Assembly: GCF_018413525.1 (NCBI RefSeq)
Contig: NZ_JAHCDD010000018.1
Span: 1 to 64,000, forward strand
Source of the DNA: Acidovorax sp. CCYZU-2555
Lineage (GTDB): Bacteria > Pseudomonadota > Gammaproteobacteria > Burkholderiales > Burkholderiaceae_C
Direction: 5' to 3'
DNA: 64,000 nt
Shown: piece after piece, positions 3,328 through 62,603 of the stretch
Position numbering within the stretch: the first letter of the stretch is position 1
Layout: the number at the start of each line of letters is the position of its first letter
The notes under the pieces: model-generated
The model's input: only the letters and a program-made list of their open reading frames with translations
What the model was told of the DNA's origin: nothing
The model's database searches: none
Made by a program: the position numbers and the translations under genes

Positions 3328-3445
3328 ATTTCTTCCTTGGAAAAAAGCAAAGTCAAAACAACGGGAACAGGGCCTGAACCTGGCCCGGGGAGGCACGTCC
3401 TTGCCTGATCGCATGTATCAGCAAGTAACGTGCCTGGTCCGTGGT

Positions 3446-16785: not shown

Positions 16786-16824
16786 GGCCCCAGATTGTGC
16801 ATGGCAAGCCGGCCGGAACGACAT

Positions 16825-25434: not shown

Positions 25435-26391
25435 ATGCTGTACGACGCCACCGCCCCCTATCCCCGTGACCTGGTGGGCTACGGCCGCAAGCCGCCCCAT
25501 GCGCGATGGCCGGGCCAGGCACGCATCGCCGTGCAGTTCGTTCTCAACTACGAGGAAGGCGGCGAAAACGCCGTGCTGCATGGCGACCCGGCAAGCGAGC
25601 AGTTCCTGTCCGAAATGTTCAATCCCGCGGCCTATCCCGAGCGCCACATGAGCATGGAAGGCATCTACGAATACGGCTCGCGCGCCGGTGTCTGGCGCCT
25701 GCTGCGCGAGTTCGAGAAGCGCGGCCTGCCGCTCACGGTGTTCGGCGTGGCGACGGCCCTGCAGCGCCACCCCGACGTGACCCAGGCTTTCGTCGAACTG
25801 GGCCACGAGATCGCCTGCCACGGCCTCAAGTGGATCCACTACCAGGGCGTTCCCGAGGAAGTCGAACGCGCCCACATGCGCCAGGCGATGGATATCTTCC
25901 AGCAGCTGTTCGGCGACCGCAAGGAGCACGGCCTGGGCTGGTACACGGGCCGCGACAGCCCCAACACCCACCGTCTGGTCGCCGATTTCGGCGGCTTCGC
26001 CTACGACAGCGACTACTACGGCGACGACCTGCCGTTCTGGATGAAAGTCGGCACCAGCAACGGCGACAGCGCGCGCCAGCTGATCGTGCCGTACACGCTC
26101 GACTGCAACGACATGCGCTTCGCGCTGCCCCAGGGCTTCTCGCACGCCGATCCGTTCTTCCAATACCTCAAGGACACTTTCGACGTGCTCTACGCCGAAG
26201 GCGACCCCGCGGGCGACAACGCGCCCAAGATGATGAGCATAGGCATGCACTGCCGGCTGCTGGGCAAGCCCGGCCGCATCACCGCGCTGCAGCGCTTTCT
26301 CGACCATATCCAGCAGCACGACGCTGTCTGGGTGTGCCGACGCATCGACATCGCACGCCACTGGGCACAGACCCACCCCTGCCAGGATTGA
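25435..26391 (+). CDS. puuE: Allantoinase PuuE (polysaccharide deacetylase-like)
   Basis: A 318-residue cofactor-independent allantoinase of the PuuE type, hydrolysing allantoin to allantoate. Conserved stretches are YPRDLVGYG, FVLNYEEGGENAVLHGD, MEGIYEYGSRAGVWRLL, HEIACHGLKWIHY, GWYTGRDSPNTHRLV and MMSIGMHCRLLGKPGR. This is distinct from the amidohydrolase-type allantoinase AllB, which is absent. The ATG at 25435 starts 11 bp after the GntR stop; the ribosome binding site is weak. The next gene begins 5 bp after its stop, so the three downstream enzymes form one transcript. Confidence 0.95.
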   Translation: MLYDATAPYPRDLVGYGRKPPHARWPGQARIAVQFVLNYEEGGENAVLHGDPASEQFLSEMFNPAAYPERHMSMEGIYEYGSRAGVWRLLREFEKRGLPLTVFGVATALQRHPDVTQAFVELGHEIACHGLKWIHYQGVPEEVERAHMRQAMDIFQQLFGDRKEHGLGWYTGRDSPNTHRLVADFGGFAYDSDYYGDDLPFWMKVGTSNGDSARQLIVPYTLDCNDMRFALPQGFSHADPFFQYLKDTFDVLYAEGDPAGDNAPKMMSIGMHCRLLGKPGRITALQRFLDHIQQHDAVWVCRRIDIARHWAQTHPCQD

Positions 26392-26396
26392 ACCTC

Positions 26397-28172
26397 ATGC
26401 CCTTGACGCTGGAACAACTGAATCAGGCCGACCCGGCCCAGGCCCTTGCCCTGCTCGACGGCCTGTATGAACACTCGCCCTGGATTGCTGCGGCGGCGCT
26501 GGCCGAACGGCCGTTCCGCTCGCTGGACCATCTCAAGCACGCGATGGTCAAGGTGCTGGCCGATGCATCGCCGCAATCGCGCATCGACCTGATTCGCGCC
26601 CACCCCGAACTCGCGGGCAAGGCCATGGTGGCGCGCAGTCTCACGGCCGAGTCGACCAACGAACAGAACCGCGCCGGGCTCACGCAATGCTCGCTCGAGG
26701 AGTTCGCGCGCATCCAGCAGCTCAACGCCGACTACAACGCGCGCTTCGGCTTTCCATTCATTCTCGCGGTGCGCGGCCCGCGCGGCCTGGGCCTGGGCAA
26801 GCAGGAAATCATCGCCACGTTCGCGCGCCGTCTGCACAACCACCCCGACTTCGAATGCGCCGAGGCGATACGCAACATCCACCGCATCGCCGAAATCCGC
26901 CTCAACGACAAGTTCGGCCATGTGCCCACGCTGGGCAACGATGTCTGGGACTGGCAGGAATCGCTGGCCCGGCACTCGGACCCGGGCTTTGCCGAACTCG
27001 GCCAGCTCACGGTGACCTATCTCACCGACGCCCACCGCGCCTGCGCCCAGCGCATCAGCGGCTGGATGCGCGACTGCGGCTTCGATGAAGTCGCGATCGA
27101 CGCCGTCGGCAATGTCGTCGGCCGTTATCACCCCAGCGACGCCGCCGGCCGCTATCTGCTCACGGGCAGCCATTACGACACCGTGCGCAACGGCGGCAAG
27201 TACGACGGCCGCCTGGGCATCTTCGTGCCCATGGCCTGCGTGCGCGAGCTGCACCGCGCGGGCCGGCGTCTGCCGTTCGGCATCGAAGTCGTGGCCTTCG
27301 CCGAAGAGGAAGGCCAGCGCTACAAGGCCACGTTCCTGGGCTCGGGCGCGCTGATCGGCGACTTCCGCCCCGAATGGCTGGACCAGGAAGATGCCGACGG
27401 CATCACCATGCGCGCCGCGATGCAGCACGCGGGCCTGTGCCCCGACGACATTCCCGCGCTGCAGCGCGATCCTGCGCAGTACCTGGGCTTTGTCGAAGTG
27501 CATATCGAGCAGGGTCCGGTGCTCAACGAACTCGACATTCCGCTGGGCGTGGTCACGTCGATCAACGGCAGCGTGCGCTATCTGTGCGAAATGACCGGCA
27601 TGGCCAGCCATGCAGGCACCACGCCCATGAACCGCCGCCGCGACGCGGCCACGGCCGTCGCCGAGCTCGCGCTGTTCGTCGAGCAGCGCGCGGCGCGCGA
27701 TGGCGACTCGGTGGCCACGATAGGCCAGTGGCAGGTGCCCAACGGCTCGATCAACGTCGTGCCCGGCCGCTGCTGCTTCAGCCTCGACATGCGCGCGCCC
27801 ACCGACGCCCAGCGCGACGCGCTGGTCGCCGACATACTGGCCGAACTGCAGGCGATCACCGCGCGCCGCGGCCTGCGCTGCAGCAGCGAACTCGCCATGA
27901 GCGCGTGCGCCGCGCCCAGCGATCCGGTGTGGCAGCAGCGCTGGGAGAAAGCCGTCGATGCGCTGGGCCTGCCGGTGCTGCGCCTGCCCAGCGGCGCGGG
28001 CCATGACGCCATGAAGCTGCACGAAATCATGCCCCAGGCGATGCTGTTCGTGCGCGGCCTCAACGCCGGCATCAGCCACAACCCGCTGGAAAGCACCACG
28101 GCCGACGACATGCAGCTCGCGGTCGATGCCTTCACCCACGTACTGAACCAATTGAGCGACGAAGCACGATGA
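26397..28172 (+). CDS. Fusion: OHCU decarboxylase (UraD) with allantoate amidohydrolase (AllC)
   Basis: A 591-residue two-domain enzyme. Residues 1 to about 170 are OHCU decarboxylase: HPELAGK with the expected catalytic His (about residue 69) and FGFPFILAVRG. From about residue 180 it is an M20 allantoate amidohydrolase: GSHYDTVRNGGKYDGRLG, AFAEEEGQRY, VHIEQGPVL, GMASHAGTTPMNRRRDA, LPSGAGHDAM and HNPLES, so the metal and substrate residues look complete. The reading frame is continuous with no sign of a frameshift. The domains act on either side of PuuE, encoded immediately upstream: OHCU to (S)-allantoin, then allantoate to ureidoglycine. The four-base overlap (ATGA) with the next gene implies tight coupling. 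Confidence 0.92.
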   Translation: MPLTLEQLNQADPAQALALLDGLYEHSPWIAAAALAERPFRSLDHLKHAMVKVLADASPQSRIDLIRAHPELAGKAMVARSLTAESTNEQNRAGLTQCSLEEFARIQQLNADYNARFGFPFILAVRGPRGLGLGKQEIIATFARRLHNHPDFECAEAIRNIHRIAEIRLNDKFGHVPTLGNDVWDWQESLARHSDPGFAELGQLTVTYLTDAHRACAQRISGWMRDCGFDEVAIDAVGNVVGRYHPSDAAGRYLLTGSHYDTVRNGGKYDGRLGIFVPMACVRELHRAGRRLPFGIEVVAFAEEEGQRYKATFLGSGALIGDFRPEWLDQEDADGITMRAAMQHAGLCPDDIPALQRDPAQYLGFVEVHIEQGPVLNELDIPLGVVTSINGSVRYLCEMTGMASHAGTTPMNRRRDAATAVAELALFVEQRAARDGDSVATIGQWQVPNGSINVVPGRCCFSLDMRAPTDAQRDALVADILAELQAITARRGLRCSSELAMSACAAPSDPVWQQRWEKAVDALGLPVLRLPSGAGHDAMKLHEIMPQAMLFVRGLNAGISHNPLESTTADDMQLAVDAFTHVLNQLSDEAR

Positions 28173-39019: not shown

Positions 39020-39850
39020 ATGGCCTGGCTTGCAGAACTTGAACTCGACTATGCCGTTTCGCACGGCCGCAGCGTGGTGCACCACCGCCACAACGGCCCG
39101 CTGCGCGTGCTGCGCAGCCTCTACCCCGAAGGCGATGCGGTGTGCCACAACGTGCTGGTGCATCCGCCCAGCGGCCTGGTCAGCGGCGACACGCTCGACA
39201 TCCGCGCGCACGTGGCGAGCGGCGCCCATGCACTGGTCACCACGCCGGGGGCGACGCGCTTTTACCGCGCCAATGGCGCGCCCGCGCTGCAGGACACGCG
39301 CCTGACGCTGGACGCCGGCGCGCGCATGGAATGGCTGCCGCTGGAAAACATCGCCTACAGCGGCTGCGACGCGCACAACCGGCTGGAGTTGCAGCTCGCA
39401 CCGGGCGCCGAGTTGATAGGCTGGGACATGACGGCGCTGGGCCTGCCCCACGCAGGCCTGCCCTTTGCCGCCGGCCGCTATACCCAGCACCTGGAACTGC
39501 CCGGCCAATGGCTGGAGCATGGCACGCTGGCCGCGGGCGACGCGCTGCTGATGGACGGCCCGCTGGGCCTGGCCGGCCAGCGCTGCCTGGCCTCGCTGTT
39601 CTTCGTCAGCGGCAGCGCGATCGCGCGCGAGCGCCGCGAAGCCGCATTGGAGATGACGCGCACGCTGATCGAAAGCCATGCGCTCGCGCCCCGCTGCGGC
39701 GTGACCAGCCCGCACGACCAGATGATCGTGCTGCGCGCGCTCGCACCCATGGTCGAGCCCGTGATGCAGCTGTGGCAGCAGGTATGGCGGCTATGGCGCA
39801 CGCATTTCTGGGACATGGCTGCCGTGGCGCCGCGCATCTGGGCCATGTAG
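39020..39850 (+). CDS. ureD: Urease accessory protein UreD
   Basis: A 276-residue urease maturation scaffold that binds apo-urease with UreF and UreG during nickel insertion. Recognised stretches include PEGDAVCHNVLVHPPSGLVSGD, HALVTTPGATRFYR, EWLPLENIAYSG and DMTALGLP. The ATG at 39020 gives the expected N terminus; the upstream extension overlaps the deaminase gene. It is separated from ureABC and ureEFG by about 15 kb, whereas ureD usually heads the urease operon, so this looks like a split operon. It converges on the type III effector candidate gene. Confidence 0.93.
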   Translation: MAWLAELELDYAVSHGRSVVHHRHNGPLRVLRSLYPEGDAVCHNVLVHPPSGLVSGDTLDIRAHVASGAHALVTTPGATRFYRANGAPALQDTRLTLDAGARMEWLPLENIAYSGCDAHNRLELQLAPGAELIGWDMTALGLPHAGLPFAAGRYTQHLELPGQWLEHGTLAAGDALLMDGPLGLAGQRCLASLFFVSGSAIARERREAALEMTRTLIESHALAPRCGVTSPHDQMIVLRALAPMVEPVMQLWQQVWRLWRTHFWDMAAVAPRIWAM

Positions 39851-40432: not shown

Positions 40433-40888
40433 TTAGCCGCGAATGAACTGCTCGAAGCGCGAAGGCGCGGCGGCTGCCTCAGCCGCGGCTGCGGGCGCGG
40501 CATCAAACAGCGCCGCGCAGCTTTCGGCCGCATCGACAAAAGCCTTGATCACGGCCTCCCAGTCCAGCACCTCCATGCCCGCAGCATCCACGACACGCGT
40601 GATGGCGACGCCGCCCGTAGGGCCGTCCAGGCCTATCGTCGCGCCCCCCGTGCCATGAAAGAAGTAGTTGGCTTCGAGCAGACGACGGCAGGCTTCGGGG
40701 CCGGCATCGGCGGACAGCACGCCCAGGCTGCTGTACAGCAGCACCAGGGAGCTGTCGCCCACGGACTCGATATTCACCACGACGTCGTCAAAGCTCAGGC
40801 AGCAGTAGCCGTTTTCATCGAGCGCCAGGCCTTCGAGGCCCAGGGCATTGCCAAAATCGGTCAGCAGGCGGTTGATATGGTCGTTCAT
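40433..40888 (-). CDS. CesT/SycE-family type III secretion chaperone
   Basis: A 151-residue acidic protein matching the class I type III chaperone pattern: an N-terminal helix (INRLLTDFGNALGL), beta strands YCCLSFDDVVVNIE and SLVLLYSSLGVL, then RRLLEANYFFHGTGGATIGLD. The low predicted isoelectric point fits. An Ala-rich C-terminal tail (APAAAAEAAAAP) is unusual. It has a good ribosome binding site (GAGGAAA). Such proteins bind one effector, usually encoded next door, here the gene at 39870-40418. The pair lies in a gap between ureD and pfk, with a 231-bp divergent promoter region ahead of it. Confidence 0.78.
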   Translation of the reverse strand: MNDHINRLLTDFGNALGLEGLALDENGYCCLSFDDVVVNIESVGDSSLVLLYSSLGVLSADAGPEACRRLLEANYFFHGTGGATIGLDGPTGGVAITRVVDAAGMEVLDWEAVIKAFVDAAESCAALFDAAPAAAAEAAAAPSRFEQFIRG

Positions 40889-42330: not shown

Positions 42331-43023
42331 TCAAATCGCCACCAGCTGGCGTATGCCTTTTTCCTGCATCTCACTGCCCGGCCCCTGGGCGATCACCGCG
42401 CCGCGCTGCATCACCAGGTACTGGTCGGCCAACTCCTCGGCAAAGTCGTAGTACTGCTCGCACAGCAGCACGGCCATGCCGCGCTCGCGCGCAAGCATGC
42501 GGATCACACGGCCTATGTCCTTGATGATGCTCGGCTGAATGCCTTCGGTGGGCTCGTCGAGAATCAGCAGTTTGGGCCCGGGAGCGAGCGCGCGTGCGAT
42601 CGCGAGCTGCTGCTGCTGGCCGCCCGAAAGATCGCCGCCGCGGCGCTGCAGCATCTGCGCGAGCACGGGGAACAGTTCGAACAGATCGGGCGGAATCGGC
42701 GTGGACGCGCTGCAATAGGCCAGGCCCATGCGCAGGTTGTCCTGCACCGTGAGGCGCCCGAAGATCTCGCGCCCCTGGGGCACGAAGCCTATGCCCGCGC
42801 GCGCGCGTTCGTAGGGCGTGAGGCCCGCAATCTGGCGGCCCTGCCATTCGATGGAGCCGCTGCGAATCGGCACGCGGCCCATCAGGCTCTTGAGCAGCGT
42901 GGTCTTGCCCACGCCGTTGCGCCCCAGCAGCACGGTGACCTGGCCGGGTTCGGCGCAAAGGCTCACATCGCGCAGGATGTGCGAGCCGCCGTAGTACTGG
43001 TGAAGGTTCTGGACTTTAAGCAT
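42331..43023 (-). CDS. urtE: Urea ABC transporter ATPase UrtE
   Basis: A 230-residue ATPase of the LivF type with Walker A GRNGVGKTTLL, VPQGREIF in the Q-loop region, signature LSGGQQQQLAIARAL and Walker B LLILDEPTEGIQPS. The EPTEGIQP stretch is typical of UrtE rather than amino acid LivF proteins. The ATG at 43023 gives the family's MLKVQNLHQYYGGSHIL start. It is the last gene of the minus-strand urt operon. Confidence 0.93.
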   Translation of the reverse strand: MLKVQNLHQYYGGSHILRDVSLCAEPGQVTVLLGRNGVGKTTLLKSLMGRVPIRSGSIEWQGRQIAGLTPYERARAGIGFVPQGREIFGRLTVQDNLRMGLAYCSASTPIPPDLFELFPVLAQMLQRRGGDLSGGQQQQLAIARALAPGPKLLILDEPTEGIQPSIIKDIGRVIRMLARERGMAVLLCEQYYDFAEELADQYLVMQRGAVIAQGPGSEMQEKGIRQLVAI

Positions 43024-43039
43024 GATGTGTGCAGGCGAC

Positions 43040-43918
43040 TCAGCGCCCCAGATAGACCTCGACCACACGTTCATCGGCCTGGACCTGGGCCAGCGGGCCC
43101 TCGGCCAGCACCGCGCCGTCGCACAGCACCGTGACCTTCTCGGAGATCGCGGCGATGAACGACATGTCGTGCTCGACCACCATCAGCGAATGCTGGCCCT
43201 TGAGGCGCAGGAACAGTTCGGCGGTGCGCACGGTTTCCTCGTCGGTCATGCCGGCGACGGGTTCATCGAGCAGCAGCAGCTTGGGCTCCTGCATCAGCAG
43301 CATGCCGATTTCCAGCCACTGCTTCTGGCCGTGGCTCAGCACGCCGGCCATGCGCCGCACCGCATCGGCGAGATGGATGGTGTGCAGCACTTCGGCGAGG
43401 CGGTCCTTTTGCGCGCTGTCGAGGCGAAAGAACATCGAGTGGCGCACGCCCTTGTGCGTCTTCAGCGCGAGTTCTAGGTTCTCGAACACCGTGAGGTTTT
43501 CGAACACCGTGGGCTTCTGGAACTTGCGGCCAATGCCCAGCTGGGCGATCTCGGGTTCGTTGTGGCGCAGCAGATCGATGGTCGAGCCGAAGAACACCGT
43601 GCCGCGATCGGGCCGGGTCTTGCCGGTGATGATGTCCATCATCGTCGTCTTGCCTGCGCCGTTCGGGCCGATGATGCAGCGCAGCTCGCCGGGCGCGATG
43701 TCCAGGCTCAGGCCGTTGATCGCCTTGAAGCCGTCGAAGCTCACATGCACATCTTCGAGGTACAGAATGCGCCCGTGCGTCACGTCGACTTCGCCGGGCA
43801 CGGCCGCGCGCGCGTAGCTCGCGCTGCGCCCGCCCGAGTCGCCCTGCTGCTGCGCCGCGCGGCGCACCGCGAGGGCTTCGAGGCGCTCGGCGCCGGCTTC
43901 CATTTGGTCGGGTGTCAT
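43040..43918 (-). CDS. urtD: Urea ABC transporter ATPase UrtD
   Basis: A 292-residue ATPase of the LivG type with Walker A GPNGAGKTTMMD, IGRKFQKPTVFENLTVFENL, signature LSHGQKQWLEIGM and Walker B LLLLDEPVAGMTDEE. The LSHGQKQWLEIGML signature is diagnostic of UrtD in my experience. About 50 residues precede the core domain. Its ATG overlaps the urtC stop by four bases (ATGA). Confidence 0.94.
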   Translation of the reverse strand: MTPDQMEAGAERLEALAVRRAAQQQGDSGGRSASYARAAVPGEVDVTHGRILYLEDVHVSFDGFKAINGLSLDIAPGELRCIIGPNGAGKTTMMDIITGKTRPDRGTVFFGSTIDLLRHNEPEIAQLGIGRKFQKPTVFENLTVFENLELALKTHKGVRHSMFFRLDSAQKDRLAEVLHTIHLADAVRRMAGVLSHGQKQWLEIGMLLMQEPKLLLLDEPVAGMTDEETVRTAELFLRLKGQHSLMVVEHDMSFIAAISEKVTVLCDGAVLAEGPLAQVQADERVVEVYLGR

Positions 43919-45063
43919 TGCCCACCTCCTTCTTCGGGCTTGGCGCGGCGACCCAGTCGCAATTGCCGCACCCAGCCCACCACGCCCTGCGGCAGGAACA
44001 AGGTCACGGCAATGAACAGCGCGCCCAGGAAATAGAGCCAGAACTCGGGCGCGCTGACGGTGAGCCAGCTCTTGGCGCCGTTGACGATGAACGCGCCGAC
44101 GATGGGGCCGATCAGGCTCGCGCGCCCGCCGACCGCAGCCCACACCGCCATCTCGATCGAGTTCGCGGCGCTCATTTCACCGGGGTTGATGATGCCCACC
44201 TGCGGCACATAGAGCGCGCCCGCGATGCCGCACATCATGGCGCTGATGCACCAGATCGTGAGCTTGTAGGGCAGCGGCGAATAGCCCGAGAACATCACGC
44301 GCGTTTCGGCGTCGCGAATCGCCTGCAGCACGCGGCCGAACTTGCTTTGCACCAGCCAGCGCGCGAACAGGTAGCAGCCCAGCAGCACGCAGCCCGTGAG
44401 AACGAACAGGAACATGCGCATTTCCGGCGTCGCGATCGCCACGCCCAGGATGCGCTTGAAATCGGTGAAGCCGTTGTTGCCGCCCAGACCCGTCTCGTTG
44501 CGGAAGAACAGCAGCATCGCCGCATAGGTCAGCGCCTGGGTGATGATCGAGAAATACACACCCTTGATGCGCGAACGGAAGGCGAAGTAGCCGAACACGA
44601 AAGCCACGAAGCCGGGCACGGCCACGATCAGGAACAGCGTGGCGACAAAGCTGTCGCTGAGCTGCCAGTGCCAGGGCAGTTCCTTCCAGTCGAGGAAGAC
44701 CATGAAGTCGGGCAAGGCGCTGCCCGAGTTGCCGTCGGCGCCGATCTGGCGCATCAGGTACATGCCCATCACATAGCCGCCGAGCGCGAAGAACAGGCCG
44801 TGGCCCAGGCTCAGAATGCCCGCGTAGCCCCAGATCAGGTCCATGGCCAGCGCGCAGATCGCGTAGCACATGATCTTGCCGATCAGCGAGACCGCGTAGT
44901 CGGACATATGGAAGGCGCTGCCCGCGGGCACCCACAGATTGAGCAACGGCGCGACGGCGCAGATGACCACCAGCGCGGCGAGAAACACCGACCAGCCGGT
45001 GCGCGTGAGCAGGGGCTTGGGGCCGGGCAGCACGAGAGAGGGAGAAGAAGAATTCAGCTGCAT
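43915..45063 (-). CDS. urtC: Urea ABC transporter permease UrtC
   Basis: A 382-residue LivM-type permease with about ten membrane segments. Stretches such as DLIWGYAGILSLGHGLFFALGGYVMGMY, RNETGLGGNNGFTDFK and AVGGRASLIGPIVGAFIVNGAKSW are typical of UrtC. With UrtB it forms the inner-membrane channel for urea. It starts one base after the urtB stop and overlaps urtD, so translation is coupled. Confidence 0.94.
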   Translation of the reverse strand: MQLNSSSPSLVLPGPKPLLTRTGWSVFLAALVVICAVAPLLNLWVPAGSAFHMSDYAVSLIGKIMCYAICALAMDLIWGYAGILSLGHGLFFALGGYVMGMYLMRQIGADGNSGSALPDFMVFLDWKELPWHWQLSDSFVATLFLIVAVPGFVAFVFGYFAFRSRIKGVYFSIITQALTYAAMLLFFRNETGLGGNNGFTDFKRILGVAIATPEMRMFLFVLTGCVLLGCYLFARWLVQSKFGRVLQAIRDAETRVMFSGYSPLPYKLTIWCISAMMCGIAGALYVPQVGIINPGEMSAANSIEMAVWAAVGGRASLIGPIVGAFIVNGAKSWLTVSAPEFWLYFLGALFIAVTLFLPQGVVGWVRQLRLGRRAKPEEGGGQ

Positions 45064-45064
45064 T

Positions 45065-46684
45065 TCAAGCCTCCGCGCTGCGGCCTTTCATTGCGAAGAT
45101 GCCTTGCGGCCGCTTCTGGATGAATATGATGATGAACACCAGCACCGCGATCTTGGCCAGCACCGCTCCGGTCCAGCCCTCGAGGAATTTGCCCAGGATG
45201 CCCAGACCCAGCGCCGCATAGACCGTGCCCAGCAACTGGCCCACGCCGCCCAGCACCACGACCATGAAGGCATCGACGATGTAGCTCTGTCCCAGGTCGG
45301 GGCCCACATTGCCCACCTGGCTCAGCGCGCAGCCCGCAAGGCCGGCTACGCCAGACCCCAGCGCAAAGGCCATGGTGTCGACGCGTGCCGTGTTCACGCC
45401 CATGCAGGCGGCCATGGCGCGGTTCTGCGTCACGCCGCGCACGAACAGTCCCAGGCGCGTGCGGCTGATGGTCCAGGCCATGGCCAGCAGCACCGCGGCC
45501 GCGAAGACGATGATCACCAGGCGATTGAGCGGCAGTGTGAGGTTGGGCAGCAGCTGCCAGCCGCCGCTCATCCAGACCGGGTTTTCAACACCCACGTTCT
45601 GCGCTCCGAACAAGGTGCGCACGGTCTGCATCAGCACCAGGCTGATGCCCCAGGTCGCAAGCAGTGTTTCAAGCGGGCGGCCGTAGAGAAAGCGCAGCAC
45701 CGAGCGCTCCATGAGCGCGCCCACGGCGGCCGCGGCCAGGAACGACAGCGGCACGGCAGCGAGCAGGTACCAGTCGAACGCGCCCGGGAAATAGGTCTGG
45801 AACAGGTTCTGCACCATGTAGGTCGCATAGGCGCCGATCATCATCAGCTCGCCATGCGCCATGTTGATCACGCCCATCAGCCCGTAGGTGATCGCCAGGC
45901 CCAGCGCGACCAGCAGCAGGATGGAGCCCAAGCTGATGCCCGTGAACACCACGCCCAGGCGTTCGCCCCAGGCCAGGCGGTCGTCCACCTGGGCCAGCGA
46001 GCGCCGTAGCTGGGCCTGCACCTTCTCGTCGCTCTCTTCGGACAGCCGCGTCTGCAGCAGCAGGCGGGCCTGCGGCGAGCCGCTTTCGCCCAGCGAGCCG
46101 GCCGCTTCGCGGCGCTGGTCGACGTGGTCGCTGCCCAGCAGCGCGGCCGAGCGCGCGAGTTCCAGCGACTGGCGCACGGCGCTGTCCTTTTCCTCGGCCA
46201 GCGCGCGTTCGAGCAGAGGAATCGCCGCGGGCGAGGCCTGCTTGAGCATCGCCTGCGCAGCGTCGCGGCGCAGCGCGGTGTCGGGCGCAAACAGATTGAG
46301 CGCGGCCAGCGCGGCAGAGATCTCGCCGCGCAGCCGGTTGTTGTTCATGACATCTTCCGCGCCTTCGGGCAGCGCGGTGGCCGCGCCCGTGGCCGGGTCG
46401 CTGACCTGGCCGTTGCGCACCACCAGCGCGCGGCCGTCGGCGACGACCACCGCATCATCGGCAAGCGCGCGCAGGTAAGGGGCCAAGGTGGCGTCGGGTT
46501 GCTGCAGTGCCGACTGGATGGCGGCGATGCGCGCGTCCGAGTCGCCCTGCGCCATCGCCAGCGCCTGCGCGGGCGTGAGCGCCTGTGCGGCCGTGGCGCC
46601 CAGCAGCGCACAGGCCAGCGCCGCCCGGCGCAGCAGGGCTGCGAGGGCCGGGCGCAAGCCGGTGGTCAGAAAGTTTCCAAGCAT
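45065..46684 (-). CDS. urtB: Urea ABC transporter permease UrtB
   Basis: A 539-residue LivH-type permease with a long N-terminal extension, as usual for UrtB. A signal-like segment (LACALLGATAAQA) leads into a periplasmic helical region of about 200 residues with repeat-like helices (TPAQALAMAQGDSDARIAAIQ, LARSAALLGSDHVDQRREAAGSL). The permease core follows (GVINMAHGELMMIGAYATYMVQ and later SQVGNVGPDLGQSYIVDAFMVV). The ATG at 46684 has a weak ribosome binding site. It follows urtA after a 173-bp gap containing two strong hairpins. Confidence 0.92.
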   Translation of the reverse strand: MLGNFLTTGLRPALAALLRRAALACALLGATAAQALTPAQALAMAQGDSDARIAAIQSALQQPDATLAPYLRALADDAVVVADGRALVVRNGQVSDPATGAATALPEGAEDVMNNNRLRGEISAALAALNLFAPDTALRRDAAQAMLKQASPAAIPLLERALAEEKDSAVRQSLELARSAALLGSDHVDQRREAAGSLGESGSPQARLLLQTRLSEESDEKVQAQLRRSLAQVDDRLAWGERLGVVFTGISLGSILLLVALGLAITYGLMGVINMAHGELMMIGAYATYMVQNLFQTYFPGAFDWYLLAAVPLSFLAAAAVGALMERSVLRFLYGRPLETLLATWGISLVLMQTVRTLFGAQNVGVENPVWMSGGWQLLPNLTLPLNRLVIIVFAAAVLLAMAWTISRTRLGLFVRGVTQNRAMAACMGVNTARVDTMAFALGSGVAGLAGCALSQVGNVGPDLGQSYIVDAFMVVVLGGVGQLLGTVYAALGLGILGKFLEGWTGAVLAKIAVLVFIIIFIQKRPQGIFAMKGRSAEA

Positions 46685-46857: not shown

Positions 46858-48126
46858 TTACTTTTTCTCGGGTTCGTCTTTTTTCTTGTCGTTGCCTGGG
46901 ATGTACGGGCTCCATGGCTTGGCCTTCACCGGTGCGGGCGTCTTCCAGACCACGTTGAACTGGCCGTCGGCCTTGATCTCGCCGATGAACACGTTCTTGT
47001 GCAGATGGTGGTTCTTCTCGTCCATCTTGCTGACGATGCCGCTGGGCGCCTTGAAGGTCTGGCCGGCCATGGCGGCGATCACCTTGTTCACATCGGTGGA
47101 CTTGGCCTTCTCGACGGCCTGCTTCCACATGTGGATGCCGATGTAGGTGGCTTCCATCGGGTCGTTGGTCAGCGGACGGTCCTTGTGGCCGGCGATGTTC
47201 TTGGCCTTGGCGTAGTCGCTCCACTTCTTGATGAACGCCGTGTTCTCGGGGTTCTTGATCGACATGAAGTAGTTCCAGGCGGCCAGGTGGCCGACCAGCG
47301 GCTTGGTGTCCACGCCGCGCAACTCTTCCTCACCCACGGAGAAGGCGACGACGGGCACGTCGGTGGCCTTGAGGCCCGCATTGCCCAGTTCCTTGTAGAA
47401 CGGCACGTTGGAGTCGCCATTGATGGTCGACACCACGGCCGTCTTGCCGCCCTGGCTGAATTTCTTGATGTCGGCAACGATGGTCTGGTAGTCGCTGTGG
47501 CCGAACGGCGTGTACTTCTCGTCGATGTCGCTGTCCTTCACGCCCTTGGTCTTGAGGTAGGCGCGCAGGATCTTGTTGGTGGTGCGCGGGTAGACGTAGT
47601 CGGTGCCCAGCAGCACCCAGCGCTTGGCGCCGCCGCCGTCCTTGCTCATCAGGTAATCGACCGCAGGAATGGCCTGCTGGTTGGGCGCCGCGCCCGTGTA
47701 GAACACGTTCTTCGACAGTTCCTCGCCTTCGTACTGCACGGGGTAGAACAGCAGGCCGTTCATTTCCTCGACCACGGGCAGCACCGACTTGCGGCTCACG
47801 CTGGTCCAGCCGCCGAAGATCACGGCGACCTTGTCCTGGCCCAGCAACTGCTTGGCCTTCTCGGCGAACAGCGGCCAGTTCGATGCCGGGTCGACGACCA
47901 CAGGCTCGAGCTTCTTGCCCAGCACGCCGCCCGAGGCGTTGATTTCATCGATGGCCATCAGCACCGTGTCCTTGAGCACGGTTTCCGAAATCGCCATCGT
48001 GCCCGACAGGCTGTGCAGCACACCGACCTTGATGGTGTCCGCGGCCCATGCCGGCATGGCACCGAAACCCAGGCCGGCAACGGCTGCCGCGGCAGCAAGG
48101 GATTGAAGGGTGAAACGACGATGCAT
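46858..48126 (-). CDS. urtA: Urea ABC transporter substrate-binding protein UrtA
   Basis: A 422-residue periplasmic urea receptor of the FmdD/AmiC-like family. The signal peptide ends near MPAWAADTIKVG. Family stretches include GVLHSLSGTMAISET, GGWTSVSRKSVLPVVEE, FYPVQYEGEE, GTDYVYPRTTNKI and AAWNYFMS. The ATG at 48126 is followed by a standard basic-hydrophobic signal and preceded by AGGAG; the reading from 48171 adds a leader. It is the first gene of the urt operon. An inverted repeat at 48227-48244 lies about 100 bp upstream. Confidence 0.94.
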   Translation of the reverse strand: MHRRFTLQSLAAAAAVAGLGFGAMPAWAADTIKVGVLHSLSGTMAISETVLKDTVLMAIDEINASGGVLGKKLEPVVVDPASNWPLFAEKAKQLLGQDKVAVIFGGWTSVSRKSVLPVVEEMNGLLFYPVQYEGEELSKNVFYTGAAPNQQAIPAVDYLMSKDGGGAKRWVLLGTDYVYPRTTNKILRAYLKTKGVKDSDIDEKYTPFGHSDYQTIVADIKKFSQGGKTAVVSTINGDSNVPFYKELGNAGLKATDVPVVAFSVGEEELRGVDTKPLVGHLAAWNYFMSIKNPENTAFIKKWSDYAKAKNIAGHKDRPLTNDPMEATYIGIHMWKQAVEKAKSTDVNKVIAAMAGQTFKAPSGIVSKMDEKNHHLHKNVFIGEIKADGQFNVVWKTPAPVKAKPWSPYIPGNDKKKDEPEKK

Positions 48127-48226
48127 GGTCAGCGGCTCCTGAGGTGGTTGGACAGGTGCTGCGAAAGCCATCGGCTTTGTTCAGCACCATGGGACCAATG
48201 CTAGGGAGGGGGCCGCTTTTTAGATA

Positions 48227-48244
48227 TACGCCGGATGGCGTATG
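48227..48244. promoter_or_regulatory. Inverted repeat upstream of urtA
   Basis: A perfect inverted repeat, ATACGCC-GGAT-GGCGTAT, lies about 100 bp before the urtA start. On the minus strand it is followed by an AT-rich stretch (ATATCTAAAAAG) that could hold a -10 region, so an activator bound here would sit just upstream of the promoter. The LuxR-type response regulator at 50376-51344 is one candidate binder. Confidence 0.5.
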
Positions 48245-50375: not shown

Positions 50376-51344
50376 TCACGCCGGCAGGCGCGCCATCGCC
50401 ATCGCCGCGGCCGCGGTGCGCGTCTCCACGCCCAGTTTGGCGAAGATGCGTTCGAGGTGCTTCTTCACCGTCGCCGGGCTGCAGCCGACGATGTCGGCGA
50501 TGTCGCGGTTGATCTTGCCCTGGGCCAGCCAATAGAGCACTTCGGCTTCCTTGGCGGTGATGCCAAAGCCCTGGCGCAGCGTCTCGCGCGCCGCGAGATC
50601 CGACTCCTCGCGCATCACCAGCAGCAGCTCGCCGTCTTCGGCTTCGGGCGAAGGCGGGTGCAGGCGCAGAACCACGGGGCCCAAGCCCGTATCGAAGGTC
50701 CAGCGCGGCGGCTCGAGCTGCAGCGCCAGCGTGGGCTGCTGGCGTTGAATCCACGACGTGATGTCGTCGGGCAGCACGGCGCGCAGGCCTTCGAGCCCGA
50801 GGTGGCGGCGCAGCAGTTCGCGCGCCAGCGGCGTCTGCCACAGCACGCGGCCGTCGGTGATGCGCACCGTGAGGCTCGCATAGCCGAACGCGTCCAGCGC
50901 GCTGCGCGCTTGCACCGCCTGCTGCTGCTGGGCGCGCGCGCGCCGCGCCGTGCCCAGGTGCACGCCCATGCGCGCCAGCACTTCGGCGGGCTTGATGGGC
51001 TTGGTCACATAGTCGACGCCGCCGGCCGCGAGCGCGGCGATCAGGTGCTCGGTCTCGGTCAGGCCGGTCATGAAGACGATGGGAATCGGGGCCGTGTGCG
51101 CGTCGGCCTTGAGGCGGCGCGCGACTTCGAATCCGTCCATGCCGGGCATCATCGCGTCGAGCAGCACGATGTCGGGCAGGGCCTGGGCGGCGCGCGCCAG
51201 CGCGGCTTCGCCGCTGGTCGCGACCAGCACGATATACCCCGCGGCATCGAGCGCGTCGTGCAGCATCGCGAGGTTGTCGGGCACATCGTCGACGATCAGC
51301 ACCAGGTTGGCGTCGCGTACGGGAACGGGGGGGAAATCCATCAT
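50376..51344 (-). CDS. Response regulator: receiver, middle domain, LuxR-type HTH
   Basis: A 322-residue response regulator. The receiver domain occupies about residues 10-125 with phosphoacceptor Asp in DIVLLDAMMPGMDG and the conserved Lys in DYVTKPIKP. A middle region of about 100 residues (residues 140-245, PAS-like in character) precedes a LuxR/FixJ helix-turn-helix at the C terminus (ITAKEAEVLYWLAQGKINRDIA ... SPATVKKHLERIF). Its first ATG shares a base with the stop of the kinase gene (TGATGATG), so the two are translationally coupled cognate partners. Targets are likely near: urtA and the urease operon flank the pair. Confidence 0.9.
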   Translation of the reverse strand: MMDFPPVPVRDANLVLIVDDVPDNLAMLHDALDAAGYIVLVATSGEAALARAAQALPDIVLLDAMMPGMDGFEVARRLKADAHTAPIPIVFMTGLTETEHLIAALAAGGVDYVTKPIKPAEVLARMGVHLGTARRARAQQQQAVQARSALDAFGYASLTVRITDGRVLWQTPLARELLRRHLGLEGLRAVLPDDITSWIQRQQPTLALQLEPPRWTFDTGLGPVVLRLHPPSPEAEDGELLLVMREESDLAARETLRQGFGITAKEAEVLYWLAQGKINRDIADIVGCSPATVKKHLERIFAKLGVETRTAAAAMAMARLPA

Positions 51345-54300
51345 CAGACCTTTGTCTCTGCGGCGCCAGGCGCGTTCAATTGCTGGGCCATGGCCTCGAA
51401 CTGGAATTGCTGGGCCTGGGCCTGCAGCCTGCGCCACGCGGGCGCGGCCTGTGGGTAGTCCTGGGCGAGCTGGGCCAGCGCCTGCACCACGCCGCGCACA
51501 TAGCCCCATTCGATCGCCTGGCGCAAGGCCGTGAGCGCCGCGGCGGGTATGCCGTCGAGCCCGGTATCGGTGTCTTGGCACAGCGTGACGGGCGCCGGCA
51601 GCGGCGCACTGCGCCACACAAGTTCAAGCCGGTCTTCGAGCCACTGCAGCAGCTCGCTGTGGCGCACCGGCTTGACCAGGAAGTCCTGCGGCGTGATGCC
51701 TACGTCGTTGGGCATTTCACGGTCGAAGGCATTGGCCGAAACAATGGCGCAGGCGACTTCGCCCAGCGGCATCTGGCGCAGCTGGCGCAGGCATTCCCAG
51801 CCGTCCATTCCCGGCATCGCCAGGTCCATGAAGATCGCCTGCGGGCGGTAGCCCGCGGCCAGCAGCGCCAGCGCCTCCTGTCCGTTGGCCGCGTGCTGCA
51901 CCGCAAAGCCCAGCGGCACCAGCAGCTGCGCCAGCAGTTCGCGGTCGGCCTCCTCGTTGTCGACGACCAGCAGCCGGCGCGTCGCGCCCGCATAGCCCAC
52001 GGGCCGCGGCACGGCGGGCAGCTGGGCCGGCCCGCGTTCGAGCGACGGCAGGAACAGGCGGATATGAAAAGACGCGCCCTGGCCCGGCTGGCTGCTCACG
52101 CTCAGCGCGCCGCCCATCAACTCGGTCAGCATCTTGGCCATGGTCAGGCCCAGGCCCGCGCCCGCGCTCGACTGCGCGCCCGAGCCGCGCGCGAACGGCT
52201 CGAAGACCTGGGCCTGCTCGGCTTCGCTCAGGCCCGGGCCGGTATCGATCACCGACACATAGGCCATCTGCCGGCTGTGGCGCACGCGCAAGGTGACCGC
52301 GCCGCGCGCCGTGAACTTGATGGCATTGCCCAGCAGGTTGAACAGAATCTGGCGCAGGCGCTTCTCATCGGTGCGCACCCACTCCGGCAGCGCGCCTTCG
52401 GGTTCGTAGTGGAAGTTCAAGCCCTTGGCCGCGGCCTGGAGTTCGAACATGCCGGCCATCTCCTGCAGGCCCGCGGCGAACTGCATGGGCTGGACCTGCA
52501 GCGCGAGCTTGCCCGATTCGATGCGCGCGATGTCCAGCGTGCCCTCGATCAGCGACAGCAGATGCTCGCCGCCGCGGCGTATCACGGCCACCGCCTGGCG
52601 CCGGTGCGGCGGCACTTCGGCGTCTTCACCCATGAGCTGGGCATAGCCCAGGATGCTGTTGAGCGGCGTGCGCAGCTCGTGGCTGATGGCGCTGATGTAG
52701 CGGCTCTTGGCCTGGTTGGCGAGATCGGCCGCGCGGCGCGCGTCCTCGGCCACGGTGCGCGCATCCTCGGCCGCGCGCCGCGCCTGCTGTAGTTGGCCGT
52801 CGGTGGCGCGGTGCAGCGCGATTTCGCGCACCAGCAGGCCGGTCTGGCGGTTCGACTCCTGCTGCGCGACCTTGCGGCTGTGCTGGGCCAGCACCAGCCA
52901 CCAGGCGACGACGCCCGAGACCAGCAGCAGGCCCACGCCCACCTTGAGCAGCACGGTCTGCAGCACGGCTTCGGCCCCGGGCAGCGCATTGACCGGCAGG
53001 CTGCGCGCATGCGTCTGCAGCTCCAGCAGATACAGCAGACCGATCACCGCGGCGAGCGTGGGCACGATCAGCAGCATCAGCAGCACAAAGTGCAGCAGCC
53101 CCTTGTCGAGCAGGCGCCACATGCTCGTCGGCAGCAGCCGGCGCGCGGCCGCGCGCCACTGCACGGCGAGATGCGCCTGGGGCCGGCACAGATCGCCGCA
53201 GCGCGCGTCCAGCGTGCAGCACAACGAACAGATGCCGCCCTGGTAGGCCGGGCAATGCACCATGTCGGGCGCTTCGTATTCGCGCTCGCAGACCACGCAG
53301 CGCTGCAGCCGCGGCGGGCCCGCAGAGCGCAGCGCCGCGCAGCCTGCAGGCTCCACGGCCTGGGCGGCGTCGGGCACCAGGTAGTAGCGCCCACGCGTCC
53401 ACCAGGCGATCAGCGGCGACGCGATCAGCGCCACCAGCATCGCGATCACCGCCGAGAACGCCTGCGCCAGCGGCCCGAACGCGCCCAGGTGCGCGGCCAC
53501 CGACAGCAGCGACGACAGCGCCATCGCGCCCACGCCCACCGGGTTGATGTCGTAGAGCCGCGCGCGCTTGAACTCTATGCCGCGCGGCGACCAGCCCATG
53601 GGCTTGTTGATCACCAGATCGGCGACCACGGCCATGATCCAGGCGATCGCCAGATTCGAGTAAAGCCCCAGCACTTCGCCCAGCGCGCGGAACACGTTCA
53701 TCTCCATCAGCATGAAGGCGATCAGCGTGTTGAACACCACCCACACCACGCGCCCCGGGTGGCTGTGCGTGACGCGCGAGAAGAAATTGCTCCAGGCCAG
53801 CGAGCCCGCATAGGCATTGGTCACATTGATCTTGAGCTGCGACAGCACGACGAACAGCGCCGTCGCCGCCACGGCCCAGCCGTAGTCGGGGAACACGTAG
53901 TTGTAGGCCGCGAGGTACATCTGGTTAGGGTCCACCGCATGGTCGGGCGGCACGGCCTGCGAAATGGCGAGATAGGCCAGCAGCGCGCCGCCCAGCATTT
54001 TGGCCACGCCCAGCAGCACCCAGCCCGGCCCGCCCAGCATCACCGCGCCCCACCAGCGCCAGCGATTGGCCCGCGTGCGCACCGGCATGAAGCGCAGATA
54101 GTCGGCCTGCTCGCCCATCTGCGTGATCAGCGCAATGCCCACCGTCAATCCAGCACCAAAAAGAGGCAGACTGAAGCCTGCCATCAGGCCTTCACGCTGC
54201 TGCGACGCACCCGGATAGTGCAGAACTTCGGAAAACACCCCAGGCTGGTGCATCAGCACAAAGACGAAAGGCACGATCAGCATCAGCAGCCACAGCGGCT

Positions 54301-54886
54301 GGGTCCAGACCTGCAGCCGGCTGATCGCCGAGACCCCGTGCGTGACCAGCGGAATCACCACCAGCGCGCAGATCAGATAGCCCCAGCGCGGTGGAATGTC
54401 GAGTGCAAGTTCAAGCGCATAGGCCATCACGGCCGCCTCGAGCGCAAAGAAGATGAAGGTGAAACTCGCGTAGATCAGCGAAGTGATGCTGGAGCCGATA
54501 TAGCCAAAGCCCGCGCCGCGCGTGAGCAGATCCATGTCGACGCCGTGGCGCGCCGCGTAGACGCTGATCGGCAGGCCCGCGGCAAAGATGATCAGCCCGG
54601 TGCAGACGATGGCCCAGAAGGCATTGATGAAGCCGTACTGCACCAGCAGCGTCGCGCCCACGGCTTCGAGCACCAGAAACGAGGCCGCGCCGAACGCGGT
54701 ATGCGCCACGCCCCACTCCGACCAGCGGCGCGCGCGCTGCGGCGTGTAGCGCAGCGCGTAGTCCTCCAGCGTCTCGGTGGCCACCCAGCGGTTGTAGTCG
54801 CGCCGCACCTTGACCACGCGCTGCTGCGCGGGCGCACCCAAGGGTTCCGATGGCGGGCAGTGTGGATCAGGAGTGGCATGAATCAT
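51344..54886 (-). CDS. NCS1 transporter-fused hybrid sensor histidine kinase
   Basis: A 1180-residue sensor. An NCS1 (purine-cytosine permease-like) transporter domain with about twelve membrane segments spans residues 45-500 (MDLLTRGAGFGYIGSS, QADYLRFMP, INVTNAYAGSLAWSNFFSR). A cysteine-rich segment follows at about 516-567 (CVVC, then CPAYQGGICSLCC, CGDLC), likely a metal or redox site. Two more membrane segments and a coiled coil lead to HisKA (His about 736 in SHELRTPLNS), HATPase (LLGNAIKF, DTGPGL, GAGLGLTM) and a receiver (Asp about 1021, FMDLAMPG), then a helical tail. It probably senses a nucleobase, allantoin or urea-like compound through the transporter fold. An in-frame ATG at 54928 would add 14 residues, but its apparent ribosome binding site is the complement of the sigma-54 element for ureA. 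Confidence 0.9.
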   Translation of the reverse strand: MIHATPDPHCPPSEPLGAPAQQRVVKVRRDYNRWVATETLEDYALRYTPQRARRWSEWGVAHTAFGAASFLVLEAVGATLLVQYGFINAFWAIVCTGLIIFAAGLPISVYAARHGVDMDLLTRGAGFGYIGSSITSLIYASFTFIFFALEAAVMAYALELALDIPPRWGYLICALVVIPLVTHGVSAISRLQVWTQPLWLLMLIVPFVFVLMHQPGVFSEVLHYPGASQQREGLMAGFSLPLFGAGLTVGIALITQMGEQADYLRFMPVRTRANRWRWWGAVMLGGPGWVLLGVAKMLGGALLAYLAISQAVPPDHAVDPNQMYLAAYNYVFPDYGWAVAATALFVVLSQLKINVTNAYAGSLAWSNFFSRVTHSHPGRVVWVVFNTLIAFMLMEMNVFRALGEVLGLYSNLAIAWIMAVVADLVINKPMGWSPRGIEFKRARLYDINPVGVGAMALSSLLSVAAHLGAFGPLAQAFSAVIAMLVALIASPLIAWWTRGRYYLVPDAAQAVEPAGCAALRSAGPPRLQRCVVCEREYEAPDMVHCPAYQGGICSLCCTLDARCGDLCRPQAHLAVQWRAAARRLLPTSMWRLLDKGLLHFVLLMLLIVPTLAAVIGLLYLLELQTHARSLPVNALPGAEAVLQTVLLKVGVGLLLVSGVVAWWLVLAQHSRKVAQQESNRQTGLLVREIALHRATDGQLQQARRAAEDARTVAEDARRAADLANQAKSRYISAISHELRTPLNSILGYAQLMGEDAEVPPHRRQAVAVIRRGGEHLLSLIEGTLDIARIESGKLALQVQPMQFAAGLQEMAGMFELQAAAKGLNFHYEPEGALPEWVRTDEKRLRQILFNLLGNAIKFTARGAVTLRVRHSRQMAYVSVIDTGPGLSEAEQAQVFEPFARGSGAQSSAGAGLGLTMAKMLTELMGGALSVSSQPGQGASFHIRLFLPSLERGPAQLPAVPRPVGYAGATRRLLVVDNEEADRELLAQLLVPLGFAVQHAANGQEALALLAAGYRPQAIFMDLAMPGMDGWECLRQLRQMPLGEVACAIVSANAFDREMPNDVGITPQDFLVKPVRHSELLQWLEDRLELVWRSAPLPAPVTLCQDTDTGLDGIPAAALTALRQAIEWGYVRGVVQALAQLAQDYPQAAPAWRRLQAQAQQFQFEAMAQQLNAPGAAETKV

Positions 54887-54911: not shown

Positions 54912-54943
54912 GTGCCATGTTGCAGCATGGCACGTACCTTGCT
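54912..54943 (+). promoter_or_regulatory. Sigma-54 promoter of the urease operon, with overlapping inverted repeat
   Basis: TGGCACGTACCTTGCT at 54928-54943 is a near-perfect sigma-54 -24/-12 promoter, with its -12 GC 40 nt before the ureA ATG. The -24 box is also the right arm of a perfect inverted repeat, GTGCCATG-N6-CATGGCAC (54912-54933), so a protein bound there could block or aid sigma-54 polymerase. This points to nitrogen-limitation control of urease. Confidence 0.75.
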
Positions 54944-54980
54944 GCAAACCCCTTATCTGCACCGTCCCCGCCCCTAAGCC

Positions 54981-55283
54981 ATGGAACTCACTCCGCGCGA
55001 AAAAGACAAGCTGCTTCTGTTCACCGCCGCACTGGTGGCCGAGCGCCGCAAGGCCCGTGGCCTGAAGCTCAACTACCCCGAAGCCATGGCCCTGATCAGC
55101 GCGGCCGTGATGGAAGGCGCGCGCGACGGCAAGACCGTGGCGCAGCTGATGAGCGAAGGCCGCACGGTGCTCACGCGCGCCGATGTCATGGACGGCATCG
55201 CCGAAATGATTCCCGACATCCAGGTCGAAGCCACGTTTCCCGACGGCACCAAGCTGGTCACCGTGCACGACCCCATCGTCTAA
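54981..55283 (+). CDS. ureA: Urease subunit gamma
   Basis: A 100-residue subunit, the standard length. It begins [23 protein letters not shown] and contains [22 protein letters not shown] and [24 protein letters not shown], all typical. It is the first gene of the plus-strand urease operon, behind the sigma-54-type promoter at 54928-54943. It forms the (alpha-beta-gamma)3 enzyme with UreB and UreC. Confidence 0.97.
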
Positions 55284-55924: not shown

Positions 55925-56251
55925 ATGGTGCCCGGTGAACTGATTCTCGACGCGGGCGAACATGCCCTCAACACAGGCCGCCGCTGCACCACGCTGCTGG
56001 TGCGCAACGCCAGCGACCGGCCCATTCAGGTCGGCTCGCACTACCACTTCGCCGAAACCAATGCGGGTCTGGACTTCGACCGCGCCGCGGCCCATGGAAT
56101 GCGGCTGAACATCGCCAGCGGCATGGCCGTGCGCTTCGAGCCGGGCCAGCAGCGCACGGTGGAACTCGTCGATTTCGCGGGCGAGCGCCTGGTCTACGGC
56201 TTTCGCGGCCTGGTCCAGGGCGCGCTCGACAACCAGCCTGGAGACCACTGA
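55925..56251 (+). CDS. ureB: Urease subunit beta
   Basis: A 108-residue subunit with the usual stretches [59 protein letters not shown] and a slightly longer C-terminal tail. A GAGGAG-like ribosome binding site precedes the ATG. It lies 2 bp before ureC, so translation is probably coupled. Confidence 0.97.
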
Positions 56252-56253
56252 AC

Positions 56254-57972
<1,719 letters not shown>

Positions 57973-62066: not shown

Positions 62067-62099
62067 ATCAACCTTCACCACGTGAGGGTGCATGACGGC

Positions 62100-62603
62100 A
62101 TGGCCTTCTTCGGATCTGCTTCACCGATAGAAGCGCTTTACACCAATCACCACGCCTGGCTGCTGTCGTGGTTGCGGCGCCGCCTCGGGGACGCGAGCGA
62201 TGCCGCCGATCTGGCCCATGACACGTTTGTGCGCCTCATGCTGTCATCGCGCGAAGCCGCCGTGGGCGAGGAGCCGCGCGCGTTCCTGACCCATGTGGCC
62301 AAGGGACTGGTGATCGACCTGTGGCGCCGGCGCGAACTGGAGCGGGCCTATCTGGATGCGATTGCCCACCTTCCGCAAGCGCATGCGCCCTCCCCCGAAG
62401 CGCAGTTGCTGGTTGTCGAAGCCTTGTTGCAGATCGATCGCCTGCTCGCGGCGCTGGCGCCCAACACACGCAAGATCTTCCTGCTCGCGCAGCTCGACGG
62501 TCTAACGCTGCAGCAGATCTCCGATCAGATGTCCATGCCGGTGATCACGGTGCGCCGCCATATCCACAAGGCGCTGGTCAGCTGCATGAGCGTACTGCAA
62601 TGA
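62100..62603 (+). CDS. fecI: ECF sigma factor, FecI type
   Basis: A 167-residue extracytoplasmic-function sigma factor. Region 2 includes LYTNHHAWLLSWLRRRLGDASDAADLAHDTFVRLM; region 4 includes LLAQLDGLTLQQISDQMSMPVITVRRHI. The pattern fits the iron-starvation FecI group. The ATG at 62100 is favoured; a GTG at 62082 is also in frame. It overlaps the anti-sigma gene by four bases (ATGA) and lies behind a Fur box. Confidence 0.9.
   Translation: MAFFGSASPIEALYTNHHAWLLSWLRRRLGDASDAADLAHDTFVRLMLSSREAAVGEEPRAFLTHVAKGLVIDLWRRRELERAYLDAIAHLPQAHAPSPEAQLLVVEALLQIDRLLAALAPNTRKIFLLAQLDGLTLQQISDQMSMPVITVRRHIHKALVSCMSVLQ

Follow-up and report, generated by a model that had tools for sequence, protein, structure and literature searches.

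The window analysed here, a 64,000-nucleotide stretch of Acidovorax sp. CCYZU-2555 (contig NZ_JAHCDD010000018.1), contains a single reading frame in which an NCS1-fold membrane domain, a cysteine-rich module, further membrane helices and a hybrid histidine kinase are joined. The gene for a LuxR-type response regulator follows directly, its ATG overlapping the kinase stop codon by one base. The urea uptake genes urtABCDE lie beyond it, and ureA, divergent from the kinase, heads the urease genes on the other side. All window coordinates are positions in the 64-kb stretch (Table 1); loci and genomes used for comparison are designated L and G, respectively, followed by a number.

Architecture of the fused kinase

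The kinase frame was read from the ATG at 54886; another in-frame ATG is present at 54928. Pfam matches were obtained for HisKA (residues 726-792), HATPase_c (839-946) and Response_reg (973-1082), and the hallmarks of a hybrid histidine kinase (the HisKA histidine, the N box and the receiver aspartate) are all present. Conservation was scored in an alignment of 139 rows, the window protein and 138 homologues, from which three short rows were left out. H736, N854 and D881 are conserved in 139/139 rows and the receiver residue D1021 in 134, the other five (L132, L140, L165, L167 and L169) having gaps at that position. Since all 138 homologues retain eight cysteines along with the histidine of the kinase, and 133 of them the receiver aspartate, a chance open frame is ruled out. 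An HPt domain in the C-terminal helices was considered and rejected, as at positions 1108-1175 a histidine never occurs in more than 40 of the 139 rows. The open reading frame, Pfam and the fold confirmed the fusion and its coupled regulator, which an initial annotation had read from the DNA alone: the protein is a transporter fold and a histidine kinase in a single chain, like the CbrA-type transceptor kinases.

Residues 1-674, the cysteine stretch included, matched no Pfam family at E up to 10, and the membrane half had no match to the Pfam NCS1 model, presumably PF02133, whose presence in the library used was unchecked. Sequence searches of the PDB also missed Mhp1 and CodB, and a route to Mhp1 through an intermediate NCS1 protein gave no useful alignment; the NCS1 assignment came from the fold search alone. 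AlphaFold2 models were obtained for the full chain (54 alignment rows, pLDDT 78.8) and for residues 20-704 (81 rows, pLDDT 82.8, pTM 0.84). When the latter was compared with a PDB library using Foldseek, entries for Mhp1 and CodB took ranks 1-5 (TM by target 0.65-0.79, identity 15-17%); sodium symporters (5nv9, NIS) appeared at rank 8 and below, and by this ranking the fold is not of the SLC5 type. With the full chain, only kinase-type structures were found among the best 50 matches. By its predicted fold the membrane half is NCS1, as the initial annotation had proposed. Two other NCS1-like proteins were encountered: a distant stand-alone paralogue in the same genome (L002, 1429-3066; 28% identity), likewise devoid of any Pfam match, which adjoins an isochorismatase-domain hydrolase, and an NCS1-type transporter (L172, 5949-9168) adjoining a double carbon-nitrogen hydrolase-like protein and a binding-protein-like gene, these last named from their translations only.

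The module that follows contains C530, C533, C545, C553, C556, C557, C563 and C567, all present in 139/139 rows, so that the proposed cysteine conservation was borne out. It was modelled less confidently than the membrane domain (block means of about 60-80 in the 20-704 model), and a PDB sequence search with it returned weak RING-finger matches (E 3.7 and 8.3). The module probably binds metal, as a zinc finger. Two interleaved sites (530, 533, 553, 556 and 545, 557, 563, 567) would account for the stand-alone relatives described below, most of which have four cysteines. Long predicted helices follow at about residues 597-629 and 632-703. No Pfam match was found between the transporter and kinase parts, and STAC was not sought by fold.

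Table 1. Features of the kinase locus, with positions in the 64-kb window
Feature	Position	Strand	Basis
NCS1 transporter-fused hybrid histidine kinase	51344..54886	-	1180 aa; Pfam, alignment, fold model
NCS1-fold membrane domain, about residues 20-500	53387..54829	-	AlphaFold2 model, Foldseek best Mhp1/CodB
Eight-cysteine module, residues 530-567, probable two-metal zinc finger	53186..53299	-	metal presumed
Two-helix membrane hairpin and coiled coil into HisKA, about residues 597-704	52775..53098	-	predicted helices
HisKA (H736), HATPase_c, receiver (D1021)	51641..52711	-	Pfam, conserved residues
LuxR-type response regulator	50376..51344	-	Pfam Response_reg and GerE
Proposed regulator operator TACGCC-N4-GGCGTA upstream of urtA	48227..48242	.	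12/12 match
urtA, urea ABC transporter binding protein	46858..48171	-	TIGR03407 above cut-off
urtB	45065..46567	-	TIGR03409 above cut-off
urtC	43915..45063	-	TIGR03408 above cut-off
urtD	43040..43906	-	TIGR03411 above cut-off
urtE	42331..43074	-	TIGR03410 above cut-off
Sigma-54 promoter-like site ATGGCACG-N4-TTGCT before ureA	54927..54943	+	12/13; presumed consensus
ureA, divergent from kinase	54981..55283	+	NF009712 above cut-off
ureB	55925..56251	+	NF009682 above cut-off
ureC	56254..57972	+	named from translation; used as tblastn query

Gene neighbourhoods and stand-alone permease relatives

Long kinase matches were found in 45 of 149 genomes of relatives (47 matched, G109 and G116 weakly and in part). 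Of 398 genomes sampled from the phylum, 54 had a match, which was long in 52, a fragment in G376 and weak in G337. Neighbouring genes were sought at 140 loci using the Urt and Ure proteins of the window, FmdA and FmdB of L163, FmdA of L165 and the urtA-like protein of L129 as queries. Eighty loci were best hits, close relatives by design; the remaining 60 were sampled (49 of the 57 long-match places in the phylum draw and 11 loci of relatives), mostly with about 9 kb on each side. The 80 nearest loci comprised 21 with both urease and urt genes, 35 with urease only and 8 with urt only (64/80 in total), the other 16 having neither. At the sampled loci the kinase adjoined urt and fmdA genes (38 loci), urease and urt (8), urt (7), fmdA (4), urease (1) or all three (1); the sole locus with none is a 4.8-kb contig, leaving 59/60 with such genes. 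Five of six loci collected later also contain the kinase or a like fusion, by fmdA in L190 and by urt genes in L192. A UrtA above cut-off was present in 41/45 kinase-bearing relatives vs 45/104 others. The linkage to urea genes in the initial annotation thus stood for most homologues, with fmdA added to its partners, and is not universal.

In a tree of 82 rows, read by eye, the urea-linked members (with ure or a window-type UrtA and lacking fmdA) occupy four distinct positions interspersed with amide-linked members. On this tree the label 'urt and fmdA' changes 8 times, at least five of the changes being forced by well-supported branches, vs 27 when shuffled. In Methylophilus methylotrophus, fmd genes are described as induced by both formamide and urea in the part of PMC10781810 consulted. 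The kinase is also found on plasmids: matches occurred in 546 plasmid records, of which 342 are from Klebsiella, in a collection that samples organisms unevenly, and an IncF plasmid among these records (L176) carries the kinase, the regulator, urtABCDE and amiF.

Relatives of the membrane half that stand alone were collected by protein searches of plasmid records and 369 class genomes, and nine were examined. Seven of the nine adjoin urease (L175, L191, L262 and L265, the first and last being 99.8% identical), formamidase (L174 and L190) or aliphatic amidase genes (L264, Arthrobacter). In L262, from Klebsiella pneumoniae, the permease gene follows ureG, in a record without an annotated ureC and with a transposase gene in that place. 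No urease, formamidase or amidase neighbour was found within 8 kb in Streptomyces L263, nor, by the queries used, within 9 kb in Acinetobacter baumannii L261, where the permease faces a kinase. Permease and kinase are divergent neighbours in both L190 and L261, the permease of L190 belonging to a permease-fmdA-fmdB set opposite the kinase. A Moraxella stand-alone protein is 44.8% identical over residues 37-560, and four stand-alones tested in a separate tree formed one group, with very long outgroup branches. All nine end before the two-helix hairpin. Eight have equivalents of C530, C533, C553 and C556; the remaining four cysteines are complete only in L190, with one of them present in L263, and L264 is without the set. 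The zinc-finger-like linker of the initial annotation accordingly kept its invariant cysteines and lost its role as a linker peculiar to kinases, stand-alone relatives ending in it.

The combination of NCS1 fold and cysteine module also occurs in front of non-hybrid kinases (L132, L140, L165 and L193) and a PAS hybrid kinase (L195), and in L194 (6849-10520) is fused to PAS-GGDEF-EAL. Given the stand-alone relatives within urease and formamidase operons, we regard the transporter half as a probable urea or amide permease turned sensor. Within the NCS1 part only scattered weak signals (e.g. residues 417, 290 and 343) separated urea-linked from amide-linked members, and for this reason no specificity residues are claimed.

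A candidate operator and sigma-54-like sites

A palindrome search of the regions before urtA found TACGC-N6-GCGTA in 21/41, whereas in each of five shuffles any palindrome was found in at most two. The motif was scored as TACGYC-N4-GRCGTA over 12 positions with a threshold of 11/12, which 36/41 regions of this discovery set reached (shuffles, 1/123). The site before urtA is the only one at or above the threshold in the window. The 5.76-Mb genome has two exact sites, this being one; the other, by a transposase-like reading frame (named from its translation), was taken as chance. With up to one mismatch there are 10 sites in the genome vs 95 for a reversed control pattern.

In a second test, up to 1 kb was examined upstream of UrtA genes above the TIGR03407 cut-off in 20 of the 41 kinase-bearing and 40 of the 45 kinase-less relatives (two of the 40 regions were shorter, 229 and 797 bases, and one of the 20, L246, was also in the discovery set). 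The threshold was reached in 16/20 kinase-bearing vs 1/40 kinase-less genomes (Fisher p 5e-10, which, like the Fisher values below, is too small, the genomes being akin to each other) and in 1/60 and 2/120 of the respective shuffles. Two of the four misses, G137 and G096, have their kinases by an amide operon (L161 and L158); a third, G063, scores 10, and the fourth is G136. Across 2.67 Mb of loci, 70 of 85 sites at or above the threshold lie upstream of urtA, urtA-like genes or ureA, and a further nine are no more than 400 bp ahead of fmdA, a urtA-like gene or ureA. The site is found between kinase and fmdA in L163 (12), L177 (12) and L176 (11), and between the kinase and the permease-fmdA set in L190 (12/12). 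The A. baumannii locus L261 scores 10 (reached by 2/200 shuffles) and Arthrobacter L264 also 10 (equalled by 18/200), while kinase-less L174, L175, L191 and L262 score 7-9. Both kinds of site, which differ in their inner bases, are carried by G054, G055, G063, G074 and G386.

Sigma-54-like sites were scored against YTGGCACGNNNNTTGCW, which we take to be the consensus. Sites of at least 11/13 were found before ureA in 35/56 regions (shuffles, 0/168) and before urtA in 2/41 of the discovery set (shuffles, 2/123). In the window an inverted repeat, TTGCAGC...GCTGCAA (54920-54947), surrounds the site between the kinase and ureA. In the second-test urtA regions, each taken in the orientation of its gene, sites of at least 12/13 were present in 0/20 kinase-bearing vs 24/40 kinase-less genomes (Fisher p 2e-6; shuffles, 1/100 and 0/200), and sites of at least 11/13 in 5/20 vs 36/40 (Fisher p 7e-7). 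From this distribution, control of urtA seems to have passed from sigma-54 to the kinase system. Transcription of urease probably starts mainly at a sigma-54 promoter that answers to general nitrogen control.

Several other genes of the window were noted. The genome's only UreD match (39152-39757, + strand) stands apart from ureABC, and between it and urtE lies a gene of the CesT (Tir chaperone) family (40433-40888), a family known from type III secretion. A FecI-like sigma factor (62082-62603), a MOFRL protein (15412-16824) and a PnrA-like ABC binding protein (2170-3414) are also encoded. An ankyrin gene after the regulator was not taken as part of the system, the regulator and urtA starts in L032 being about 1.1 kb apart with no room for it.

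Proposed mechanism and relation to known systems

With fairly good confidence, we favour a transporter-derived receptor kinase that is driven by urea binding and induces urea uptake through its regulator. The NCS1 fold would bind urea at or from the periplasm, and formamide or other short-chain amides in sister clades; the ligand is suggested by the linkage of homologues to urea genes. A change between outward and inward states may displace the metal module of eight cysteines in the cytoplasm together with the membrane hairpin and so set the kinase, phosphate would pass from H736 to the LuxR-type regulator of the adjoining gene, and the regulator would bind TACGYC-N4-GRCGTA to induce urtABCDE. 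The direction of the signal is part of this proposal, and the domain may or may not still act as a transporter. The initial annotation had allowed a purine, allantoin or urea-like ligand and control of both urt and urease genes. Urea and short-chain amides are the ligands favoured here, purines and allantoin being unsupported (purine genes were sought in the window only); as to targets, the candidate site before urtA co-occurs with the kinase, and urease was weakly supported.

A number of observations weigh against this mechanism. Of the 16 nearest loci with neither ure nor urt, five are cut by a contig end (L046, L053, L075, L077 and L108) and 11 have no such gene within about 10 kb although not cut. 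L193, L194 and L195 have no urt, ure or fmdA gene nearby and no site of at least 11/12. In the amide clade only 22/39 regions before urtA-like genes reach this threshold (shuffles, 2/117; 37/39 score at least 10), and only 8/56 ureA regions do (shuffles, 0/168), that of the window not among them. One kinase-less genome, G079, has the site, its best regulator homologue being 45% identical over the receiver only. Finally, the motif was derived from the discovery set on which it was first scored, and the related genomes are not independent.

Alternatively, the kinase might sense ammonium, general nitrogen status or uptake flux and lie near urea genes because these are nitrogen genes. The sigma-54-like sites of 24/40 kinase-less urtA regions, which suggest nitrogen control of urt there, are in keeping with this, but the transporter half is akin to permeases in urease, formamidase and amidase operons, and three of four genomes with two kinase loci (G302, G386 and G513; locus pairs L153/L154, L155/L156 and L115/L116) have one by urease and one by fmdA, the fourth, G238, having both by fmdA; we regard this explanation as unlikely. 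We consider it very unlikely that purines, allantoin or another ureide are what the NCS1 domain detects or transports, with the urea genes as the end of the pathway. NCS1 and NCS2 transporters do carry such ligands, according to the portion of PMC11633122 consulted, and the window contains purine-breakdown genes (a molybdopterin-binding subunit of xanthine dehydrogenase type, 10114-12468, and an OHCU decarboxylase/M20 peptidase reading frame, 25506-28172), but fmdA, not a purine gene, adjoins 43/60 sampled homologues, in loci where purine genes were not sought. Least likely of all, the regulator would act elsewhere and the palindrome would be that of another regulator, gained and lost together with the kinase: the genomes are related and G079 has the site without a kinase, but the site tracks the kinase-regulator pair to urtA, urtA-like genes, fmdA and the stand-alone permease, and was not found in the tested regions of L132, L140 and L165, whose kinases have other kinds of partner.

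Beyond the urea-sensing mechanism, a wider history can be proposed, which we hold to be evenly balanced between true and false. A so far undescribed clade of NCS1 permeases for urea and short-chain amides, with a metal-binding tail, would have given rise to, or share its origin with, a portable sensory module that was fused to hybrid and plain kinases and to PAS-GGDEF-EAL. Joined by a LuxR-type regulator that has an operator of its own, the module would have freed urea uptake from sigma-54 control, and it would have moved repeatedly between urea operons and formamide operons.

The system is a real and widespread variant of the transporter-fused kinases and most likely serves urea uptake as a urea sensor; it is undescribed as far as we searched: in the literature covered, mostly at the level of titles and abstracts, no description was found of an NCS1-kinase fusion or of a bacterial NCS1 urea permease. 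An NCS1-like importer is named in a metformin cluster in the section of PMC11271267 consulted, and PMC11633122, as far as consulted, states that its own small tree contains all characterised bacterial NCS1 transporters. In Dechloromonas aromatica a kinase (583663, 1131 aa), a receiver protein (583664, 308 aa) and UrtA have a similar order and similar sizes, judged by the published table only, and the passages of PMC2907700 consulted on 583663 do not comment on a fusion. Mhp1 and CodB share the fold of the membrane half at the low identity given above and in spite of its missing Pfam match. We know of no cysteine tail on either. The stand-alone 'allantoin/cytosine permease' relatives are closer, most of them sharing part of the cysteine module, but lack the kinase and hairpin and mostly have four of the eight cysteines. 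They offer a likely candidate for a urea permease in urease operons, as in the gene after ureG in the Klebsiella record, and the kinase is likely to be devoted, in many Proteobacteria, to regulating the use of urea and formamide.

Among known sensors, the ammonium sensor kinase of Kuenenia also has a nitrogen-source transporter fused to a histidine kinase, but its transporter is an Amt domain with another ligand (PMC5764959, in part). The SLC5-STAC kinases CbrA of Pseudomonas, CrbS and RpuS (parts of PMC9100948 and PMC5715377) likewise combine a transporter fold and a histidine kinase in one chain for nutrient sensing, and CbrA is reported to induce HutT, a transporter of the same nutrient (PMC13022988, in part). 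CbrA has an SLC5 domain, a four-helix STAC domain and PAS, whereas the present protein has an NCS1 domain, the eight-cysteine module and a hairpin, and the ligands differ. Whether ligand binding or transport triggers CbrA-like kinases is described as unsettled in the same part of PMC13022988. With one fold present as probable permease and as kinase, side by side in L190 and L261, and with a predicted ligand, target and operator, that question becomes testable here.
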